From NCBI GenBank assembly GCA_003223295.1, contig QHYM01000250.1, positions 1 through 34,606 on the forward strand: DNA of 34,606 nt, given 5' to 3'. The position numbers and the translations under genes were made by a program. This stretch comes from Acidobacteriota bacterium. GTDB taxonomy: Bacteria; Acidobacteriota; Terriglobia; Acidiferrales; UBA7541. Each line of letters starts with the position of its first letter. The first letter of the stretch is position 1. Below the pieces are notes generated by a model, which saw only the letters and a program-made list of their open reading frames with translations, did no database searches and was not told the origin of the DNA. Shown piece after piece: positions 18,351-33,233 of this stretch.

Positions 18351-18439
18351 TCTCAGCATTGAATCGATTTTGTATCGGGAGTTCTATTGTTCGCTAGGCC
18401 ATACCCAGATACACTTTGGCTTCACTCAGGAGGACTGTC

Positions 18440-18772
18440 TTGACGGGTTCCGAACGCCGCACCACTCAACGTTTTACCATGCGGCTGCCGCTCACGGTTC
18501 GCTGGACGACAGGCGCGGCTGTGGGCGAAACCAGCACTGAATCGCGCGACGTCAGCTCTCGCGGCGTCTACTTCTACCTTTCCAAGGACGTCAAAGAAGG
18601 CTCGCCGGTCGAGATTCTGCTGACGCTGCCCAACGAAATTACCATGGCTGGTCCCGTGCGCGTCCGCTGCCTTGGCCGCGTCCAGCGCACCGAGCCACGC
18701 GACGAAGGCGCCGTCGGCGTAGTTGCCGCGATCGAGCGGTACGAGTTTCTCCGCGGCGACGAAAACAAATAG
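18440..18772 (+). CDS. PilZ domain protein (c-di-GMP receptor)
   Basis: A 110-residue single-domain PilZ protein. Both c-di-GMP-binding motifs are present: R7-x3-R11 (RRTTQR) and DVSSRG (D/N-x-S-x-x-G) about 30 residues later. The rest follows the PilZ barrel: VYFYLSKDVKEGSPVEILLTLP, then VRCLGRVQR, and GVVAAIERYEFL at the end. The start is set at the TTG at 18440 because a perfect AGGAGG (18428-18433) stands six bases before it; an earlier TTG at 18416 has no such site. Such proteins bind c-di-GMP and act on motility, export or transcription. It is transcribed alone, after a 258-base spacer from acs. Confidence 0.87.
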   Translation: MTGSERRTTQRFTMRLPLTVRWTTGAAVGETSTESRDVSSRGVYFYLSKDVKEGSPVEILLTLPNEITMAGPVRVRCLGRVQRTEPRDEGAVGVVAAIERYEFLRGDENK

Positions 18773-18967: not shown

Positions 18968-18985
18968 CAGTTTTTTAATCGCGCT

Positions 18986-19123
18986 TCAAGTCCGAACCAA
19001 TCTGACCAGCAGCCCAGTAATCGCATCATGCCAGGCGTGAACCATAATGCCTGGTCGCAAACTCTTCCGCATCTCGGCCAGAATTCCAAACAGCACACCA
19101 TAAACCCCAATGACGATCGCGTG
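18986..19123 (-). pseudogene. CPBP-family intramembrane protease, C-terminal fragment
   Basis: Forty-five residues readable on the minus strand begin HAIVIGVYGVLFGILAEM, continue RKSLRPGIMVHAWHDAITG and end LLVRLVRT before a stop. This looks like the last conserved block of CPBP (CAAX protease/bacteriocin-processing) membrane proteases, where the HxWxD-like motif supplies the third active-site element. The other motifs (EExxxR and FxxxH) are absent. It begins abruptly where a DinB-like gene start ends, in another frame. It is a gene fragment left by a deletion. Confidence 0.5.
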
Positions 19124-19125
19124 TT

Positions 19126-19242
19126 TGCCAGCCCGCCCCCCGAGAGGGCGCGGAGCAGGTTGACCAGGATGGTGTTGTTGCGGTCCCAGGAGTCCAGCAG
19201 AGCTTCCAGCAGGCCTTGGTCTTGTGCGTCGGACATATCCAC
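19126..19242 (-). pseudogene. DinB-like protein, N-terminal fragment
   Basis: The first 39 residues contain MSDAQDQGLLEALLDSWD and NNTILVNLLRAL, which resembles the first helix of DinB/YfiT-superfamily four-helix metalloproteins. The similarity ends at about GGGLA (19126) and the sequence passes directly into the CPBP fragment in another frame. No metal-binding histidines remain. I judge it a truncated gene; the family call rests on one helix and is moderate. Confidence 0.45.
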
Positions 19243-19281
19243 ACCCCGTTTGTTGTTGGGAAAAATCGTCAGGAATTAACT

Positions 19282-19567
19282 TCAATCTTTTGGCGGCCAT
19301 TTCTGGGCGCCGTGGATAACATTTGCAATTTCCACACCATCTTCTCGGACCCGGTAAAACCACCACGAAAGGAAGCGGCGGCAAGGGAAGTTCACGAGTC
19401 CCTTCCACACGGCCCGTCCTGCCTTTGTTTGGGAAAGACTTCAACGAACCGGCACTTTCGTAGATGGTCTTAGCAATGCGTTGAGCGGCAACCGGATTTT
19501 CTTGCTGGATGTACTCGATAACTCGGAAAAGATCTTCAGCGGCGACGGGTGCCCAGCGGAGCTGCAT
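19282..19567 (-). pseudogene. parE: ParE/RelE-type toxin, one-base frameshift
   Basis: The frame starts MQLRWAPVAAEDLFRVIEYI, typical of ParE toxins (W-x-x-x-A-x-x-D-L-x-x-I), and goes on to GRVEGTRELPLPPLPFVVV. It then shifts: with one base removed from the A-run at 19356-19359 (T-run on the coding strand) it continues YRVREDGVEIANVIHGAQKWP and ends PKD at 19282. That is exactly the expected ParE C-terminus, giving 94 residues. ParE toxins inhibit DNA gyrase. The start ATG directly follows the antitoxin stop (TAAATG). As written, the toxin is inactive; an indel error in a homopolymer would equally explain it. Confidence 0.75.
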
Positions 19568-19791
19568 TTACTTGCGAAACATTTGATCGATATGGGCGGC
19601 GACTTCTTCGTGAGTCAGGAATTCCCCTCGGCCGAGCTGCTCCAGGCCTCTTGTCACCTGCTGGCGGAACCAAGCGTCATGGTCTACGTAGTGTTCCACG
19701 AGCTGCTTCACGTTTCCTCCGCGTCGCTCTTGTTCTCGGCAGCGGCCCGGTCGACTTTCGCTTGCAGCTCTGGAGAAAGATGCACTTCCAT
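19568..19791 (-). pseudogene. parD: ParD-type antitoxin, one-base frameshift
   Basis: Starting at ATG 19791 the frame reads MEVHLSPELQAKVDRAAAE, then NKSDAEE, and stops at once. If one base is restored at about 19711-19716 it continues with a Tyr codon, then VKQLVEHYVDHDAWFRQQV and TRGLEQLGRGEFLTHEEV, ending in MFRK at 19568, 74 residues in all. This is the pattern of the ribbon-helix-helix antitoxins that precede ParE toxins. The N-terminal strand would bind the operator and the C-terminal helices the toxin. Gene order, size and the direct junction with the toxin gene are all normal for a parDE operon. Confidence 0.7.
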
Positions 19792-20211
19792 AATTTCTTA
19801 GGCTAGGTTTACAGAGCGCCACTCTCAAGGGACAGCCCTTCATCCGGCCCCTAAGCTGTCATCTCAACGGCAGCGGCTCGCTGTTTTTCTCGCCACTTCC
19901 TCATAACCGGTGCGCCACGCAATTCAAGAAACCTGCCCCACCCGCCCAGGGCATGCGTTTGGTCTGCGGCGGACGAAGTTTCCGATAACCGGATGGCCTC
20001 AATTGGTGGAGACGTGGCTGGCGACAATTGGCATGATTCCGAAGTGATTCGTATTTGAATTTCCCAGCGATGGAACGCCACCGCTGACCTAACGGACAGG
20101 GTTATCGTCAGGCGACACGGCAGGGAGCGAGGCTTGTCAGAGCACCCGCCCACTAGCAGTATCGTACTAGGACCATATCCAACGGGGATAGTTCTATCAA
20201 GGAGGGTAAGA
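19792..20211. other. gene-free region before the beta-barrel gene
   Basis: About 420 bases between the antitoxin start (minus) and the beta-barrel start (plus). It should carry both promoters. Near its right end are CTAG-CAGTATCGTA-CTAG (20153-20170), the GTACTAGGAC site at 20164-20173, and the AAGGAGGG ribosome-binding site at 20199-20206. A frame on the minus strand (19851-20303) has no recognisable protein and I do not accept it. Confidence 0.45.
20164..20173 (+). promoter_or_regulatory. candidate operator GTACTAGGAC
   Basis: The ten bases GTACTAGGAC, followed by CAT, recur in inverse orientation upstream of the PilZ gene (18332-18341), where AAT follows. In both places an AGTA stands just before. 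The site is 38 bases before the beta-barrel ATG, where an operator or a promoter element would fit. Function is inferred. Confidence 0.3.
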
Positions 20212-20754
20212 ATGCGTAAATTGCTCATTCTGTTTGGGTTCATCTTATTGGCGGCGACTTCCGCCAAGGCCCAGGAAAACCGAGGATTCGAGATTACTGG
20301 CAATTATCAGTATGTTCGCTTCAACCCAGGCAATGGCGCTTCCGGCATAAACTGCCAAGGCGGCTCCGGCTCGGGTGCGGCGTATCTCAAGGCCTCGTTT
20401 GGTATCGTTGGCGAGTTCGGCGCGTGTAAGTTCACCGGCCTGCCTTCCGGCGCGAACGCTCACGCGATGAGCTTCCTTTTCGGTCCCAGGGTGTACTTCC
20501 ATGCTCATGGACGTGTCAATCCGTTCGTCCAGGGGCTCTTCGGCAGCGACCGCTTCTCTGCCGGTTTCACCGGTGTCGGCTCGGGGTCGACCAATGCCTT
20601 TGCCATGGCTTTGGGCGGCGGAGCAGACATAACCCTGACACGCCACGTCTCCTTGCGTGCCCTGCAGTTCGACTACCTTTACACGCATTTCGGTGGCGCT
20701 TCACAGAATAACTTCAGGTTGCAGAGCGGTATCGTGTGGCGCATCGGCAGGTAG
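20212..20754 (+). CDS. outer-membrane beta-barrel protein
   Basis: A 180-residue protein with a signal peptide (MRKLLILFGFILLAATSAKAQ, cut after AKA). The mature part has short alternating strands of the eight-stranded OmpA/Omp_b-brl type: FEITGNYQYVRFN, SFGIVGEFGACKF, SFLFGPRVYFHAHGRVNPFVQGLFG, AFAMALGGGADITLTRHVSLR and FDYLYTHF. It ends in an amphipathic strand (NFRLQSGIVWRIGR). The ATG at 20212 follows AAGGAGGG at good spacing. It is a single gene closed by the terminator at 20791-20823. A structural or adhesive role is possible; no specific function can be assigned. Confidence 0.85.
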   Translation: MRKLLILFGFILLAATSAKAQENRGFEITGNYQYVRFNPGNGASGINCQGGSGSGAAYLKASFGIVGEFGACKFTGLPSGANAHAMSFLFGPRVYFHAHGRVNPFVQGLFGSDRFSAGFTGVGSGSTNAFAMALGGGADITLTRHVSLRALQFDYLYTHFGGASQNNFRLQSGIVWRIGR

Positions 20755-20790
20755 TTCGCGTCCGAAGCACCTTAGTTGAGAATCAAGCGA

Positions 20791-20823
20791 TAACGGCGGG
20801 CTTTTTGCCCGCCGTTATTTTTT
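20791..20823 (+). terminator. intrinsic terminator after the beta-barrel gene
   Basis: AACGGCGGGC (20792-20801), loop TTTTT, GCCCGCCGTT (20807-20816), then ATTTTTT. The ten-pair GC-rich stem with a T-run is a textbook Rho-independent terminator for the plus strand. It lies between the convergent beta-barrel and STAS genes; on the minus strand no T-run follows. Confidence 0.9.
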
Positions 20824-20852
20824 CGCCCGAATTTCCATTTTCGGCGACGGCC

Positions 20853-21194
20853 TCAGAAACTCGCAACGGCCGCAGTTTCACTCGGACAGGTTTCGAATAT
20901 TGGCAGCAGCCGGGCCATTTCCAACGCTTGCTTCAAGTTCGGGCGGAGATGACATAGCTTGAGGCCTCCGCCTTTGGCTTTGGTCTTCCGATGCATTTCG
21001 ATGAGTGCGCCGAGGCCCGCGCTGTCCACGTAATTGACTTGCTCCAGATTCAGGACAATCCGCGTGGCACCGGATGCGAGCAGATTGTCGATCATTGTAA
21101 GCAACCCAATGCTCTCTTCTCCGAGCACGAGACGCCCTTTGAGCGCCAGAAGATAGATTCCATTCGTCTCACGCTGCGTTATTTCCAAAGGCAT
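20853..21194 (-). CDS. STAS-domain anti-sigma factor antagonist (SpoIIAA/RsbV-like)
   Basis: A 113-residue single STAS domain. The order is LEITQRETNGIYLLALKGRL, TRIVLNLEQVNYVDSAGLGAL and then MHRKTKAKGGGLKL. The DSAGL motif contains the serine that partner kinases phosphorylate in SpoIIAA and RsbV. In the unphosphorylated state such proteins bind an anti-sigma kinase and free its sigma factor. The ATG at 21194 is chosen because GGGGGAGG stands six bases before it; the longer frame adds only nine residues. The partner kinase is not in the window. An Mla-type lipid role for STAS proteins is excluded by the lack of ABC neighbours. Confidence 0.87.
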   Translation of the reverse strand: MPLEITQRETNGIYLLALKGRLVLGEESIGLLTMIDNLLASGATRIVLNLEQVNYVDSAGLGALIEMHRKTKAKGGGLKLCHLRPNLKQALEMARLLPIFETCPSETAAVASF

Positions 21195-21761
21195 CGTTGG
21201 CCTCCCCCAAAAGCTATTCAAGGACCGTTACGCGGATTCGCGAATGCATCCATAATAGCCTGCGGATTCCCCCTAGCGAAAGAAGCAGTCGAGGCTGAAA
21301 AACAGAAGTCCGGTTACCCCGAGTAGTCTTGCGAGGGGCTACTTCCTCTCCTTCGTTGCCCCGCCCCATCCCCGCCCCGCGCGGCCTCCTGGCCTTCGCT
21401 TAAGAGTCAAAGACCGCACCCTTTGAAACACCAACCCCCAAAGGGTGCGCCACCCACCCGAGCCTGTCGTGGGGCCGGAGGTCGCTACAACGTCGGACGC
21501 AGAAAGCAACGCGCTGTTCCTTTTCTAATTCCTATTTTCTGGTTTGAATTTCAGGGTGGACTTCTGAGGAGTTACAAGGCGCTTGTCCAGTAACCGCGGT
21601 AGGGAACCCTCTAGAATGTCGAGCACGTGGATACCGCATTTCTTAGGCCTGGAGGTAGGACGTAGGAATCGAACGGCATTTATGCTGCGCTGTGAATATT
21701 ACGCTTGGGGCAGTGTCCCGATGATACGCTCTTTAGCAGAATTTCATTTGCTGAGGATGAT
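21195..21761. other. gene-free region with a hairpin
   Basis: About 570 bases with no supported gene. A perfect ten-pair stem is formed by GCACCCTTTG (21416-21425) and CAAAGGGTGC (21439-21448), followed by GCCACCCACCCG. This GGGTGGCGCACCCTTT form looks like another small dispersed repeat. A 74-residue frame at 21583-21807 has no family features and overlaps the PilZ-like gene on the other strand; I reject it. Confidence 0.45.
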
Positions 21762-22088
21762 TTATGTGCCGTCATATCTCCGTATGATGGACCAGGTGAC
21801 GGGGTGATCCTCGAAGTTCACTCCGATACTGTAGCGGTCGTCCGGCAGTCTCTGACAGTAAACCACCTTCCCGCAGGCCGGATATCCGTTCAGCGGGGTA
21901 ACCCGTAACGCGTCGCCAGGTTGCCAAGCGTGTCTAGAGAATATGCGAGCGCCGCGTGGACTGATGTTATCCGTGTAGGTCTTCTCTTCTCCATCGCCCC
22001 CCGCAGGCGCACAGTGCGAGAGGCGCACAACTACAATGATCAGCAGCCGCCTTTCCATCCTGCCAGTGAGCCAGTGGTCCAAAGGCAT
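21762..22088 (-). CDS. PilZ-like domain protein
   Basis: A protein of about 108 residues that resembles a PilZ barrel: RRLLIIVVVRLSH, then KTYTDNISPRGARIFSRHAW with an NxSxxG motif (NISPRG), QPGDALRVTPL, ACGKVVYCQRLPDDRYSIGV and NFEDHPVTW. The first c-di-GMP motif (RxxxR) is not clearly present, so it may be degenerate or non-binding. The start is uncertain: ATG 22088 is used here, with ATG 22058 and TTG 22112 as alternatives. Its neighbours are poorly structured spacers on both sides. It is the second PilZ-type gene within 4 kb. Confidence 0.65.
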   Translation of the reverse strand: MPLDHWLTGRMERRLLIIVVVRLSHCAPAGGDGEEKTYTDNISPRGARIFSRHAWQPGDALRVTPLNGYPACGKVVYCQRLPDDRYSIGVNFEDHPVTWSIIRRYDGT

Positions 22089-22525
22089 TTCGCTCAGACC
22101 TCGATTGGGCAAACCTGAGGCGTTGTGGCGCTCCGACTTGGCTAGGAAACGTACAACCTGATCTTCGGCGGGAGGGATTTGAGCTGGTGTAGCGGTAGTT
22201 CCTCTGTCTGCTTTCCGACGATCGGCCCCTTAGTCCGTCTCCTGAAACGTCGTGAGCTACTCCACGTATCCGTTTTGGATATCATTCGCCTGGGCCCAGA
22301 GCAATCGAGTCAAGACCTTAAAGCTTTATCCGCTGACTGCCTTAGTACTTAGTTTCATGGTTGTCCTGATTACGGCTTCCGTCTGAAGAAGCCCTCGGGT
22401 CATTTCCGGCTGACCTATATTTATCCCCACGGGTCCTCTCCTTCTTCCATGGGTAGTATTGAATTGGCCCATTTTGATGCGAAGGTGGAAGACAACCACA
22501 AGAAGTAATGAATAGGGGACGGTGG
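22089..22525. other. gene-free region
   Basis: About 440 bases between the divergent PilZ-like gene and the unknown gene at 22526. Frames here are short and on the minus strand only, with no recognisable content. A TAGTACTTAG stretch at about 22343 is a weak relative of the GTACTAGGAC sites. AGGGGA at 22514-22519 serves as ribosome-binding site for the next gene. Confidence 0.4.
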
Positions 22526-23131
22526 ATGATGAGTTTTGATGTTGTGGAATGGACTGATTTTGCTTCCGACGATTGGCAAAAGGCGATGCAGAAGCACTTG
22601 GGCGCGGGTTCCAAACGTTGCCTGGAGACACTAGCGTCATGGCAGAAAGCAGCGAATGCGGCGGCCGTCGATGCGAGCTACCAACCGCCCACGGAAACAG
22701 TTCACATAGCTAAGGCAGCGTTCGCAACGTCAGCGTTGACAGCCACACCGCCGGAAACAGGCGGTTTGATCGAGCTGCTCTTCGACAGCTTTTCCCACGC
22801 GGCCCTGGCTGGCATACGCTCGGCTGCCATGAGCATCCGACAGATGCTCTATCGGGCTGAGCCCGATCAGATCGATATCCAGCTAGAAGCGCAGCCGGAG
22901 CGCAATCGCCTCCTCGTCACTGGACAATTGTTGGACGTTAGCCATCCGGAGGTCGTTGGTCGCGAAGTGCAAGTCACGCTCTCGGATGGCCGGGAAAGCG
23001 TCGTCAACACGATGACAAATCAGTTTGGCGAGTTTCGCGGCGAGGTTGAAAACTCCGGAGATTTGGAGCTTTCCTTCCTTGGCCTCAGTGGAAAACCCAT
23101 CGTCATTCTGCTCCGACGGGCGCTGGGTTGA
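22526..23131 (+). CDS. protein of unknown function with carboxypeptidase-regulatory-like C-terminal domain
   Basis: A protein of about 201 residues. The N-terminal half is helical and Ala-rich with no signal peptide. The C-terminal part (about residues 125-200) reads IDIQLEAQPERNRLLVTGQLLD, broken here as IDIQLEAQPERN-RLLVTGQLLD, then VVGREVQVTLSDGR, NTMTNQFGEFRGEV and GDLELSFLGLSGKPIVILL. That is the pattern of a Greek-key CarboxypepD_reg-like beta-sandwich, with the TNxFGEF turn as its best mark. The start is set at ATG 22526 after AGGGGA; ATGs at 22508 and 22529 are alternatives. It lies before a terminator and the pentapeptide-repeat gene. I cannot name its function. Confidence 0.65.
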   Translation: MMSFDVVEWTDFASDDWQKAMQKHLGAGSKRCLETLASWQKAANAAAVDASYQPPTETVHIAKAAFATSALTATPPETGGLIELLFDSFSHAALAGIRSAAMSIRQMLYRAEPDQIDIQLEAQPERNRLLVTGQLLDVSHPEVVGREVQVTLSDGRESVVNTMTNQFGEFRGEVENSGDLELSFLGLSGKPIVILLRRALG

Positions 23132-23274
23132 TTGTCTGGAGCGATATGTCTCGCTGGCGCGTGGCCGCGGCTTCCGCCACTATTACCGCAAAGAGGACTG
23201 TAATGACCAGATAAGCTGTGCTCACGGGAAGCCCTTCAACGCGGAAAATCATACGGCAGAAAGGTCCACGAAAC

Positions 23275-23310
23275 AGGCCCTCACAGCGCTAGCGGCGAAG
23301 GGCCTTTTTC
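23275..23310 (+). terminator. intrinsic terminator
   Basis: AGGCCCT (23275-23281) pairs with AGGGCCT (23299-23305) and TTTT follows. It stands about 145 bases after the unknown gene and before the pentapeptide-repeat gene, in the 420-base gap 23132-23553 that otherwise shows no gene. Confidence 0.65.
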
Positions 23311-23553
23311 TTACGTGCTCATCTCTTTACCTCGTCTTTTCATCTTCCCGCGAGCCCCGTTACCCGTGGCGCAACCTGTACCTTGGGTCAGGCGATTTCC
23401 ACATCCCAAGTGAGAGAGGATGTACCCAGCCCAGCGGCCGTCACTCGAACGCAAAAGTGGGGGACTGGCGTTGCGCGGATTCAAATGCCGATTCCGCGGC
23501 CTGGCGCGCGTATGGGCGAGAGAGAAAGAAATCAGTCGGGGGAAAGAGTTCGC

Positions 23554-25611
23554 ATGGCTCCGGATATCCACGCAATCAAAGAAATTGAAGAGTTGAAGAC
23601 CGAAATCGCAATCGATGCGAAGCCGAAAGAAAAATCTTCGGCCGTTGCGGAAGCTCCCAGCGGAGAAGGCACGATCGGAATTTCTCTCATCGATCTCGCC
23701 GAGATTCTGGATCAGCACAAACAGTGGGTGGAATCGGGCGGAGAAACCGGAAACAAGGCCGACCTCTGCGGCATCAATCTTTCGAAAGCCGACTTGACCG
23801 GCGTCAATTTGCAGGCCGCTCATTTACATCGAGTAAATTTATCCGGAGCGGATTTGTCGATGGCGAATTTGCGGGGAGCCAGCCTGGTCCGCGCCAATTT
23901 ACAGAATGCCAACTTATTAGGTACGGAACTAAGAGGTGCTAATTTGATGGGCGCGAATGTTTATGGCGCTGACGGCTTGTGGTTCGGCCGCCTCGGTGGA
24001 ACAAATTTATTTGACGCCGTGCTCCCCGAATCGATTTCCGCCATGGACAGTTCGAAAGCGATTGGCGATGCAACCAAGGTGGCGCGCTGGTTTTATTTTC
24101 TGACCGTCGGCCTCAGCATGGTCTGCTGCCTGCTGATCGCCTACACCAACGATGTGCGTTTGCTAATAAACTCATCGGCCCTGCCTTTTGCAAAGCTGGG
24201 TAATCTCCTGCCGATGACCGGCCTTTATCTTGGTGGTCCAATCGTTCTTCTGATCCTATCTTTGCGTTTTCATTTTCTGCTTTTGCGGTTGTGGGGAAGC
24301 ATGGCCGCATTGCCCGCGGTATTTCCCGACGGACAGACGCTCGAAAAAGACGGCCCGTGGTATCTGATGGGCCTTGTGCGGCGGCATTTCCGCTGGCAGG
24401 GGGAAGCGCGCGCGGCGATGACCGCGTTCGAATCGGTGCTTTCGACGCTGCTTGCGTATTGGATCGTTCCAGCCACGCTCTTCTTCTTCTGGCTGCGCTA
24501 CTTGACGCGCCAGGATTTTCGCGGCACGTTGCTTCACGTTTTTCTGATGACCATTGCCGTCGCCACCGCCACAAGTGTTCCGTTTGTGGTTTCGCGCGTG
24601 CTCCGGCCTGGCGATATTCGGTTGCCAAAATCCAAAAATATTTTGCGCATGATTCTGGGCACCACGCGCGCGGCGCTCGCAGTAGGATGCATTCTCTTTG
24701 TCATTTCTCTGGGCGTGAACCGCGGCCTGCCTTCCGACCGAACGGCCACGAAAGTCTCTCCCGCCGATCCACGCCGCTGGGCCGCCACCGTTTTTCAGTC
24801 GGTGGGCTACCGGCCGTATGCGGACTTGACCGAAGCCTCGCTTTCGACTTCGCTTCCCAAGGGAACGCCGTGGACGGACGAAAACATTGCGAAAATCCAG
24901 GGCGCGCACCTAAATGAAATGAATTTGCGCTATGCCCGTGCGTACCATGCGTTTTTGGTGAACGCGAAATTGTGGCGCGCCAACCTTGAGGGGATTTATT
25001 TGTCCGAAGGGGACTTGCGAGGCGCCAACATGAGAGAAACTCTGCTCCGCTCCGGAATTTTCGATCGCGCCCAGCTTTCGCATGCGGTTTTGGTTTCCGC
25101 CAACGCCACTGGCGCGAATTTTGCAGCTTCTGATTTGCGCTTTTCGGATCTTTCCTACGGAATTTTTGAGAACGCGGTGCTTTCGAACGCCAGAATTTCC
25201 GGCGCCTCGCTCTACGCTGTGGATTTGATCAACGCGCAACTTTTGCGCACCGATCTTTCGCGCACGGACATGCGGGACACCCGGCTCGAGCGCGCTGTGC
25301 TTTCCTTCGCCAACTTGGAGCAGACGGACCTGTCCTCAGCCCGGCTGGCCGAAGCCGATCTGACGGGCGCGCTGTGCAAGGGAACTATTTTTTTAGACGC
25401 GGATTTGAAGAAAGCGGATTTGCGGGGAGCAAATTTGGCAGGCGCGGTTTTGCGGGGAGCGGAATTGGATGGCACGAATTTGACAGGCACCGACTTGCGC
25501 GGGGCTTTGGGGCTAACTTCGCTGCAGGTTTGTTCCGCGCAGAATGGCCGAACAGCGGTGATGGATCCCGATCTTGCGGCGGAAGTGCAGGTTCGCTGCG
25601 GATCTCATTAG
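23554..25611 (+). CDS. membrane protein with pentapeptide repeats on both sides of five TM helices
   Basis: A 685-residue protein. Residues about 68-155 are pentapeptide repeats A(D/N)LxX (KADLTGVNLQAAHL, SGADLSMANLRGASLVRANL). Residues 179-400 hold five hydrophobic helices (beginning WFYFLTVGLSMVCCLLIAY; GGPIVLLILSLRFHFLLL; WIVPATLFFFWLRYL; FLMTIAVATATSVPFVV; ALAVGCILFVISLGV). Residues about 448-655 are a second, longer set of pentapeptide repeats (AKLWRANLEG, EADLTGALCKG, KKADLRGANLAGAVLRGAEL). Each set would fold into a right-handed quadrilateral beta-helix. The ATG at 23554 follows a GGGGGA stretch. With an odd number of helices the two repeat domains would lie on opposite sides of the membrane, unless one helix is re-entrant. 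The role is unknown. Confidence 0.85.
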   Translation: MAPDIHAIKEIEELKTEIAIDAKPKEKSSAVAEAPSGEGTIGISLIDLAEILDQHKQWVESGGETGNKADLCGINLSKADLTGVNLQAAHLHRVNLSGADLSMANLRGASLVRANLQNANLLGTELRGANLMGANVYGADGLWFGRLGGTNLFDAVLPESISAMDSSKAIGDATKVARWFYFLTVGLSMVCCLLIAYTNDVRLLINSSALPFAKLGNLLPMTGLYLGGPIVLLILSLRFHFLLLRLWGSMAALPAVFPDGQTLEKDGPWYLMGLVRRHFRWQGEARAAMTAFESVLSTLLAYWIVPATLFFFWLRYLTRQDFRGTLLHVFLMTIAVATATSVPFVVSRVLRPGDIRLPKSKNILRMILGTTRAALAVGCILFVISLGVNRGLPSDRTATKVSPADPRRWAATVFQSVGYRPYADLTEASLSTSLPKGTPWTDENIAKIQGAHLNEMNLRYARAYHAFLVNAKLWRANLEGIYLSEGDLRGANMRETLLRSGIFDRAQLSHAVLVSANATGANFAASDLRFSDLSYGIFENAVLSNARISGASLYAVDLINAQLLRTDLSRTDMRDTRLERAVLSFANLEQTDLSSARLAEADLTGALCKGTIFLDADLKKADLRGANLAGAVLRGAELDGTNLTGTDLRGALGLTSLQVCSAQNGRTAVMDPDLAAEVQVRCGSH

Positions 25612-31331: not shown

Positions 31332-33233
31332 ATGGACAGCACGAACAAAGATCGGCTAAAGACGCCGTTGATTCGGGAGAACGGTAAGCATCGTCCGGCG
31401 ACTTGGGACGAGGCACTGGACCGCGTTGCTGCAGGATTCCGCAGGCAAGTCGAAAAACACGGGCCGCGCACGTTCGGCATGTTCAGTTGCTCGAAGACCA
31501 CCAATGAGCTGAACTACGTGGCTCAGAAATTCGTGCGCTCGGTGATCGGCACGAACAACATCGACAGTTGCAACCGGACTTGACACGCCCCTAGCGTCGT
31601 CGGTCTGGCGACGGTTTTCGGGGCGGGGGGCGGGACGAGTTCGTACCGCGAAGTCGAAGAGACGGACGTAATTTTGCTTTGGGGCTCGAACGCGCGCGAG
31701 ACGCACCCGATTTTCTTCCATCACGTACTGAAAGGGATTCGCAACGGCGCGAAGCTGTGCGTGATCGATCCGCGGCGGACGAGTTCTGCGCAATGGGCCG
31801 ATGTTTGGCTGGGACTCGAAGTGGGGAGCGACATTTCGCTGGCAAACGCGATGGCCAGGGAAATTATTCATTCGGGCCTGGCCAACGAGGAGTTCATCCG
31901 GCACGCGACGAGCGGATTCGATGCTTATCGCGCTTGCGTTGAAAAGTACACGCTGGAGCGCGCCGAACGTGAGACCGGCGTGCCTACACAAGTGATTCGC
32001 CAAACGGCCCATGCCTATGCCAAGGCGAAACGCGCGCAGATTTGCTGGACGCTCGGTATCACCGAGCATCACAACGCCGTAGACAACGTGCTGGCGTTGA
32101 TCAATCTTGGCCTGCTCACTGGACATGTCGGGCGCTATGGCAGCGGCCTCAACCCGTTGCGTGGGCAGAACAATGTACAGGGCGGCGGCGACATGGGCGC
32201 GATTCCCGACCGCTTGCCAGGCTTTCAGCACGTGGAGAACGGGGAATTGCGCGCGAAATTCGAACGCGCGTACGGTGTGAAACTCGATCCCAAGCGCGGC
32301 TGGCACTTGAGCGCGATGTTCGAAGCCATGGAGCACGGCGAACTCACGACTCTTTACGTTCTGGGCGAGAATCCCGTGGATTCGGAAGCGGACCGCCACC
32401 GCGCGGTGAAGCTCATGAGCGGGCTGGAATTCCTGGTCGTGCAGGATCTCTTTTACACGAAGACGGCCGAACTCGCTCACGTCATCTTGCCCGGGTCCGC
32501 CGGCTGGTGCGAAACCGAGGGCACCGTGACGAGCAGCGAGCGCCGCGTGCAGCGCGTGCGCGCCGCCGTGCCGCTGCCGGAAGGCGTGCGCGACGACATG
32601 GAGATTATTTACGAACTCGCGCGGCGATTTGGCCGCGACTGGGGCCAGCCGCACGCGGAAACGATTTGGAACGAGCTGCGCCAGTTGAGCCCCATGCATG
32701 CGGGCATGAGTTACAAGCGGCTCGAGGAGCTGGGCGGAATCCAGTGGCCTTGCTACGATGAATGGCATCCGGGCGAGCTGTATTTGCACAGCCGGCTTTG
32801 GCGTGAACCGCTCATTGGGCCGCGCGCGCCTTTTAGTGTGGTCGAGTTCGAACCACCAGTCGACGTACTCAATGACGAATATCCGATTCGCTTAACGACC
32901 GGGCGACATCTGGATTCGTACAATACCGGCGAGCAGAGCCGGCGCTTCCCTTCGCCGCTGCGCCGCGCAGCAACGCTTGACCTCTCGCCGGAAGACGGGA
33001 AGCGCTACCGCGTGAGCGAAGGCGAGCAAGTGCGCGTGAGTTCACGACGGGGATCGGTGCTCGCGCCCGTGCGCTTTGACCCTGGCTTGCGGCCGGGGCT
33101 TGCTTTTCTCTCCGTCCATTTTCACGAGCAAATCTCGACGAATGATCTCACCATTGACGCGGTGGATCCCAAGTCCGGAACGTCGGAATTCAAAGCGACG
33201 GCCATTCGCATCGAGAAGTGCGTGGAGCACTGA
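31332..33233 (+). CDS. fdhA: selenocysteine-containing formate dehydrogenase catalytic subunit, short form
   Basis: A 633-residue molybdopterin/tungstopterin enzyme read through an in-frame TGA at 31581-31583 (residue 84). The context NNIDSCNRT-Sec-HAPSVVGL matches the active site of formate dehydrogenases, where Sec or Cys binds the metal. It continues LLWGSNARETHPIFFHHVLKG, LNPLRGQNNVQGGGDMG, LGENPVDSEADR, VQDLFYTKTAELAHVILPG and the C-terminal molybdopterin-binding domain. It oxidises formate to CO2. ATG 31332 follows GGGAGAGG by six bases. It begins at the point that matches RLKTPMIR of E. coli FdhF, so the N-terminal [4Fe-4S] domain (four Cys) is missing; upstream in frame a stop occurs at 31278 and no Cys is found. 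The NuoE-NuoF fusion starts directly after its stop codon. Usual gene finders would split or truncate it at the TGA. Confidence 0.88.
31584..31625 (+). promoter_or_regulatory. bacterial SECIS element
   Basis: Directly after the TGA, CGCCCC (31586-31591) pairs with GGGGCG (31620-31625) and CGTCG (31595-31599) with CGACG (31609-31613). The nine-base apical loop TCGGTCTGG contains GGTCT, the same as in the E. coli fdhF SECIS, where the loop G and U contact SelB. The apical GG lies 18 bases after the TGA, inside the known range. Coding and structural constraint coincide here. Confidence 0.88.

Follow-up and report, generated by a model that had tools for sequence, protein, structure and literature searches.

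A widespread membrane pentapeptide-repeat protein with predicted beta-helix rods on both sides of a five-helix core

The window analysed here, a stretch of 34,606 nucleotides from a soil bacterium of the phylum Acidobacteriota, encodes a 685-aa membrane pentapeptide-repeat protein (PRP; 23554..25611, + strand) in which a short and a long predicted beta-helix are separated by five membrane helices. This two-rod membrane architecture is widespread and not peculiar to the window, and a literature search found no description of a membrane core flanked on either side by pentapeptide repeats. The function proposed for it, with a confidence that falls somewhat short of an even chance, is that of an inner-membrane scaffold or tether.

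The 685-aa ORF is a real gene. Its start is placed at the ATG at 23554, from which the close orthologues align, though the longest ORF begins further upstream. When the N-terminal, membrane and C-terminal parts were compared separately with three orthologues, dN/dS was 0.04-0.12 in eight of the nine comparisons, dS being not computable in the ninth and near saturation in several. The Pfam family Pentapeptide (PF00805) matches PRP at E 1.1e-58 in nine stretches, and the protein holds about 18 plus up to 46 repeats of the A(D/N)LXX type, the superfamily being recognised by at least eight contiguous ones. The right-handed quadrilateral beta-helix typical of these repeats is predicted for PRP from strands that recur every five residues in the AlphaFold2 (AF2) model and from the structural match of this model to HetL (3du1, Z 30.3).

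The AF2 model of the full-length protein was built from an alignment of 47 sequences (L079, L106, L123, L124 and L127 were skipped as incomplete, and L102, L120 and L126 were also omitted). It has a mean pLDDT of 87.9 and a pTM of 0.78, and aa 20-39 form the only run of three or more residues with pLDDT <50. According to this model and the alignment, an N-cap with the motif LDQHKxWVESGGxxG (aa 44-69, 23683..23760, with an AF2 helix at 45-61) opens the N-terminal repeat domain, a beta-helix of 88 residues and about 18 pentapeptides (aa about 70-157, 23761..24024) that is predicted to be cytoplasmic. Five helices of 29-32 residues each follow, in agreement with hydropathy: helix 1 (aa 166-197, 24049..24144), helix 2 (aa 221-251, 24214..24306), helix 3 (aa 288-319, 24415..24510), helix 4 (aa 322-350, 24517..24603) and helix 5 (aa 360-390, 24631..24723). 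A linker with the conserved sequence GYRPYADLTEA..S in the alignments (aa 413-450, 24790..24903) leads into the C-terminal beta-helix, which is predicted to be periplasmic and comprises 230 residues and up to 46 pentapeptides, interrupted near 442-446 (aa about 424-653, 24823..25512). The protein ends in a two-helix C-cap (aa 654-685, 25513..25608), and all these features lie on the + strand. The layout proposed in an earlier sequence-only reading, of about 18 repeats, five hydrophobic helices and about 40 further repeats, is thus confirmed by AF2, Pfam and hydropathy.

The same reading depended on the helices being odd in number, and this is what is predicted. All five hydrophobic cores have a mean Kyte-Doolittle (KD) value of at least 1.0 in 43 of 43 sequences, a set formed by the window and 42 relatives that omits L079, L090, L100, L102, L104, L106, L110, L114, L115, L121, L124 and L127. 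The membrane module folded alone (43 sequences) retains the five long helices, with pLDDT 88.0 and pTM 0.86. An extra hydrophobic stretch, 241-257, is not counted as a sixth helix because it reaches a mean KD of 1.0 in only 14 of the 43 sequences (the window, at 1.64, is one of them) and is in part an extension of helix 221-251 in the model.

The distribution of charges points to an N-in topology. Lys and Arg are more numerous in the loops of the N-terminal side in 43/43 sequences by count and in 38/43 by density (0.146 vs 0.101 per residue), and when other boundaries were used the count favoured N-in in 45 of 47 sequences, with one against and one tie. Contrary to this bias, the short loop 3-4, which would lie outside, is rich in these residues (0.170 per residue). 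In the C-cap, Cys660 is present in 40/47 and Cys682 in 43/46 sequences; the N-terminal domain has a cysteine of its own, Cys72, but this is found in only 6/47. The lumenal protein Rfr32 also carries paired cysteines in its C-cap, where they form a disulfide according to an excerpt of PMC8145042. From the odd helix count, the modest charge bias and the conserved C-terminal cysteine pair, we infer that the N-terminal rod is likely cytoplasmic and the C-terminal rod periplasmic. The arrangement put forward from the sequence, with two beta-helix rods on opposite faces of the membrane and a five-helix core between them, is therefore supported by the AF2 prediction, the constant helix count, the charges and the cysteines.

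Two features mark the proteins of this family, the five helices and the hallmark RLWxxLAxLPAVFPDG, placed where helix 2 ends. The window protein has both, the hallmark being RLWGSMAALPAVFPDG (aa 245-260, 24286..24333, + strand). Six of the eight invariant columns of a 16-row alignment across phyla fall within this motif, and the 47-sequence alignment has 13 invariant columns, of which 5 are in aa 247-260. Nowhere else in the protein do invariant positions stand as close together across phyla, and they include W, P, F, P and G. Taken overall, conservation is lower in the membrane part than in the rods (mean majority fraction 0.53 vs 0.67 and 0.64), and a conserved face was looked for on the rods, with none standing out. 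As the strictest cross-phyla element in an otherwise less conserved part of the protein, the hallmark is what speaks most for a role that may go beyond that of a scaffold.

In the taxonomic family of the source organism, the PRP module was found in 60 of 89 genomes, or 36 of the 50 good ones (own genome included in both cases), as a single locus in 59 of the 60 positive genomes and as two loci in G040. Within the genus it is present in 31/36 genomes, again counting its own, and absent from G001, G003, G009, G022 and G028. Since no match was obtained in two genus genomes with completeness of 95% and 99%, PRP must be dispensable. In a sample of 297 genomes of the phylum, searched with a single-sequence query, the window's own genome was the only match.

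A scan of contigs from 84,980 species yielded at least 54 PRP loci from 100 pattern matches, a lower bound because only two peptide patterns were used. Going by their record titles, 43 of these loci are from Acidobacteriota and 11 from other lineages, namely Proteobacteria (5), Planctomycetes (2), and Verrucomicrobiota, Obscuribacterales, Nitrospinota and Nitrospirota (1 each). Twelve distant loci (these 11 and L108) were read by eye, and repeats occur on both sides of the membrane part in nine of them, although they are short in L122 and L126; the exceptions are L120, whose N-terminal part is only short, L127, without a C-terminal part in-frame, and L124, a fragment. Genome searches with profiles, in which at most 9 to 12 candidates were scored per genome, gave matches in at least 14 of 249 genomes of a Proteobacteria sample (including the source genome of L094 and one spurious match), in at least 2 of 199 genomes of a planctomycete sample (own source included), and, with at most 9 candidates per genome, in 1 of 244 genomes from the phylum to which the Obscuribacterales locus belongs, this one being its own source. 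Fourteen loci were then read, 13 from the Proteobacteria sample and one from a Salinibacter plasmid. Nine of them encode the membrane part first and have C-terminal repeats only, N-terminal repeats are present in L140 and L143, L149 and L153 are incomplete or without visible repeats, and L154 is spurious.

Some of these relatives reside on plasmids. The one on Salinibacter ruber plasmid pSR10 (L140:2068-3294) ends soon after the hallmark region, and Mesorhizobium plasmid pOM4 (L178:1-5300) carries a TM-first pentapeptide protein beside genes annotated as phospholipase-D-like and as a trypsin-like peptidase. The pOM4 genes may form a defence locus, although the matches from PADLOC were weak and confined to the peptidase. 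A phage or plasmid origin of PRP itself was considered and rejected. The module of the window has no plasmid match, and that of L094 has no phage match and a single plasmid match, to a truncated copy; a query with the whole L094 protein, which matched 4293 plasmids, was uninformative because of its repeats.

The reading of PRP best supported by these data is that of a scaffold or tether of the inner membrane. The five-helix module would hold a short N-terminal beta-helix on the cytoplasmic side and a long one on the periplasmic side, with RLWxxLAxLPAVFPDG where helix 2 meets the cytoplasm. Each rod would offer partner proteins a docking place on its own face, and the partners would be held in register across the membrane. 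The role would be a steady envelope function, comparable with that of HglK at cyanobacterial septa. This proposal accords with the presence of PRP in most of the genus, mostly as one locus per genome, with the lack of a conserved neighbour and with the lack of a match of the window's membrane module to any enzyme family. Against it stand the modest size of the charge bias, the K/R-rich loop 3-4, the dispensability of the protein and the invariance of the hallmark, which a plain scaffold would not explain.

Those invariant columns, together with ordered domains on both faces in the AF2 model, would also suit a transmembrane sensor or transducer, in which one rod binds a ligand or an envelope component and the five-helix core relays the change to the other rod. 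A genomic hint in the same direction is a PilZ-domain gene upstream of PRP in the window (18416..18772, + strand; PF07238, E 2.7e-6), here treated as a neighbour and candidate link only. PF07238 is a c-di-GMP family. In 20 of 21 genus loci a PilZ gene precedes PRP on its strand; the remaining locus has just 542 nt of upstream sequence. However, the distance from PilZ to the first possible PRP start, while within 650 nt in 13 of the 20, ranges from 171 to 6024 nt, so that the two do not form a tight operon, and PilZ was found in 0/19 PRP loci of other genera at E≤0.01 (with one or two queries, by which diverged PilZ genes would be missed). Of the 54 loci of the contig scan, 17 have a PilZ match, many of them being records of the same genus. 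A literature search on pentapeptide and PilZ proteins gave no relevant link, and PilZ as an operon partner was rejected given gaps of up to 6 kb and the lack of a match in the 19 loci.

Also against a sensor, neither a kinase nor a regulator nor any other output gene is conserved next to PRP. In a survey of 40 chosen loci, based on a greedy choice of at most two ORFs of 120-700 aa per side, the commonest Pfam families appeared in only 4 of 70 upstream ORFs (PilZ and response-regulator domains, 4 each) and 6 of 74 downstream ORFs (DeoC-type aldolases), and no downstream family other than these aldolases and transporters reached 4. The BLAST step of this survey did not pick up L093. Neither the neighbourhood survey, which had been suggested for the homologues, nor the PilZ searches found a partner gene conserved beyond the genus. 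The sensor is considered unlikely. Nitrite reductase, FNT transporter, nitrate reductase-like and acetyl-CoA synthetase genes, present in 5, 3, 3 and 12 of the 40 loci, were discarded as neighbours with no firm link. In the window, a molybdopterin oxidoreductase-like reading made by eye (31332-33233) is split over two ORFs, 31332-31583 and 31674-33233. In two loci of another genus (L062:10978-13697 and L063:954-3639), the genes directly upstream of PRP seem to be dnaN- and dnaA-like, judging from two Pfam members each and the ORF sizes.

A broader form of the same idea would see in these proteins transmembrane beta-helix transducers that make up a family not yet described and spread over several phyla, with the two rods coupled via a five-helix core of unmatched fold that relays or gates a signal between the cell interior and the envelope; we hold this to be quite unlikely.

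The gating of a membrane pore has also been contemplated, by analogy with HalA. This effector of the Hailong anti-phage system works with a partner enzyme and has a single repeat domain, which is joined to a membrane part, a combination that recalls PRP. PRP would then be a gated effector or channel, whose membrane part opens when a nucleic acid or protein signal binds to the repeats. In the PDB, HalA is listed as a 371-aa chain with oligodeoxyadenylate (9nyi). It is not among the fold matches listed for the full model or the module, and no family of the nucleotidyltransferase HalB is among the best 25 of 68 upstream or the best 25 of 81 downstream Pfam families. The membrane part of L108 (7431-9329) gives a sub-threshold match to the mechanosensitive-channel membrane domain MscS_TM (PF12794; E 0.0014, 18.0 of 28 bits), and the TM-first branch includes members on rhizobial plasmids, of Bradyrhizobium barranii and Mesorhizobium onobrychidis among others, one of them being that of pOM4 with its phospholipase-D-like and peptidase neighbours. 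Nevertheless, MscS_TM was not seen in the window module, L094 or L116. The HalA model NF051894 is not among the families at E≤1 for PRP and has no match in the whole genome, and the PRP profile reaches HalA only at E 0.98 and in the repeats. PADLOC (2023 library) gave no match for the module of PRP, whose gene is solitary and occurs in most of the genus rather than sporadically. A channel of this kind is very doubtful.

The invariant W, P, F, P and G of the hallmark might alternatively serve a membrane module that transports, flips or processes a substrate while the rods position it. The module was searched on its own, as the earlier reading had advised, and matched no named family in Pfam, NCBIfam, PADLOC (2023 library) or PHROGs, the matches of the whole protein falling in the repeats; a weak TIGR04554 match (E 0.04) was obtained for L155. 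Neither a transporter nor an enzyme family was therefore recognised, and the comparison with PDB folds by Foldseek gave nothing at E≤0.001 (best 0.36). The best hit in VIA was a designed helical protein with Z 9.5, within the range that the tool regards as a common arrangement, and the best E against PDB sequences was 0.52. A transporter or enzyme is accordingly rated as improbable, lower again than the channel.

The region between the PilZ gene and PRP differs from locus to locus. Homology with four close loci ends at about 18976 and restarts at 23357, and the roughly 4.4 kb between has no blastn counterpart in any of the four: in L034 and L036 no more than 250 nt separate the two ends, and in L035 and L037 there is other DNA of 2.5-2.9 kb between them. 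Window 18977-23356 is on this basis a variable stretch. It includes two ORFs assigned by Pfam, one to a ParE-like toxin (PF05016) and one to a beta-barrel protein (PF13505), the uncharacterised gene 22508-23131, and what we take to be a STAS gene and a second PilZ gene. Gene 22508-23131 encodes 207 aa and presumably resembles the regulatory-like domains found beside ECF sigma genes. A partial copy of it, 96% identical, is found at G000:C381:3343-3501. The sequence-only reading had linked this gene (as 22526-23131) with PRP in an undescribed system, and a two-gene system is scarcely credible, for although both genes share the strand and are 0.4 kb apart in the window, the gene lies in the stretch that the four close loci lack, has no match in the 40 PRP orthologue loci, and has its relatives elsewhere, in 23/61 family genomes with up to six matches per genome, the PRP-negative G009 included. 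Its role as a partner is therefore largely refuted.

With regard to proteins already described, the statement that pentapeptide proteins are mostly soluble or carry terminal helices only overlooks HalA as well as HglK and SV2, both covered in the excerpt of PMC8145042. HetL is soluble. It aligns to the PRP model at 1.8 A over 218 residues, nearly all of them in the C-terminal rod (model range 199-657), ties there with a designed solenoid and, unlike PRP, has no membrane module. In a comparison with viral structures, the top named matches were repeat proteins. PRP also stays below the NCBIfam equivalog cut-offs of Qnr (72.9 bits vs 240) and MfpA (65.7 vs 360). In the proteobacterial TM-first proteins, the membrane module is weakly related to that of PRP and repeats follow it at the C-terminal end, but there is no N-terminal repeat domain. 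SV2A/B/C are reported in the same excerpt to be polytopic membrane proteins whose pentapeptide beta-helix sits across the membrane, on its far side; in contrast to PRP, they are putative transporters with 12 TM segments and one small repeat domain.

Another of the nearest known proteins is HglK from Nostoc sp. PCC 7120, which is described in the excerpt of PMC8145042 as a protein of 727 aa with four N-terminal TM regions, repeats from aa 501 and a septal or envelope role. Both are membrane proteins of similar length with a long C-terminal pentapeptide domain. The comparison was made through two proteins of the cyanobacterial phylum (L166:2367-4505 and L167:2071-4269), identified with HglK by layout only, which hold an RDD domain (PF06271) and C-terminal repeats. 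PRP has no RDD domain, and the PRP module gave hhalign E 0.43 against these proteins (a two-sequence profile) and best domains <0 bits in hmmsearch (full-sequence E 0.044 and 0.02, in a one-sequence database). Together with the single match among the 244 genomes, this led to the rejection of PRP as a member of HglK on its membrane part, and HglK looks like an analogue rather than kin. The definition of the PRP family sets these proteins apart from HglK, with which, by layout, they could be confused, and the hallmark and a confident model make their topology, partners and function testable.
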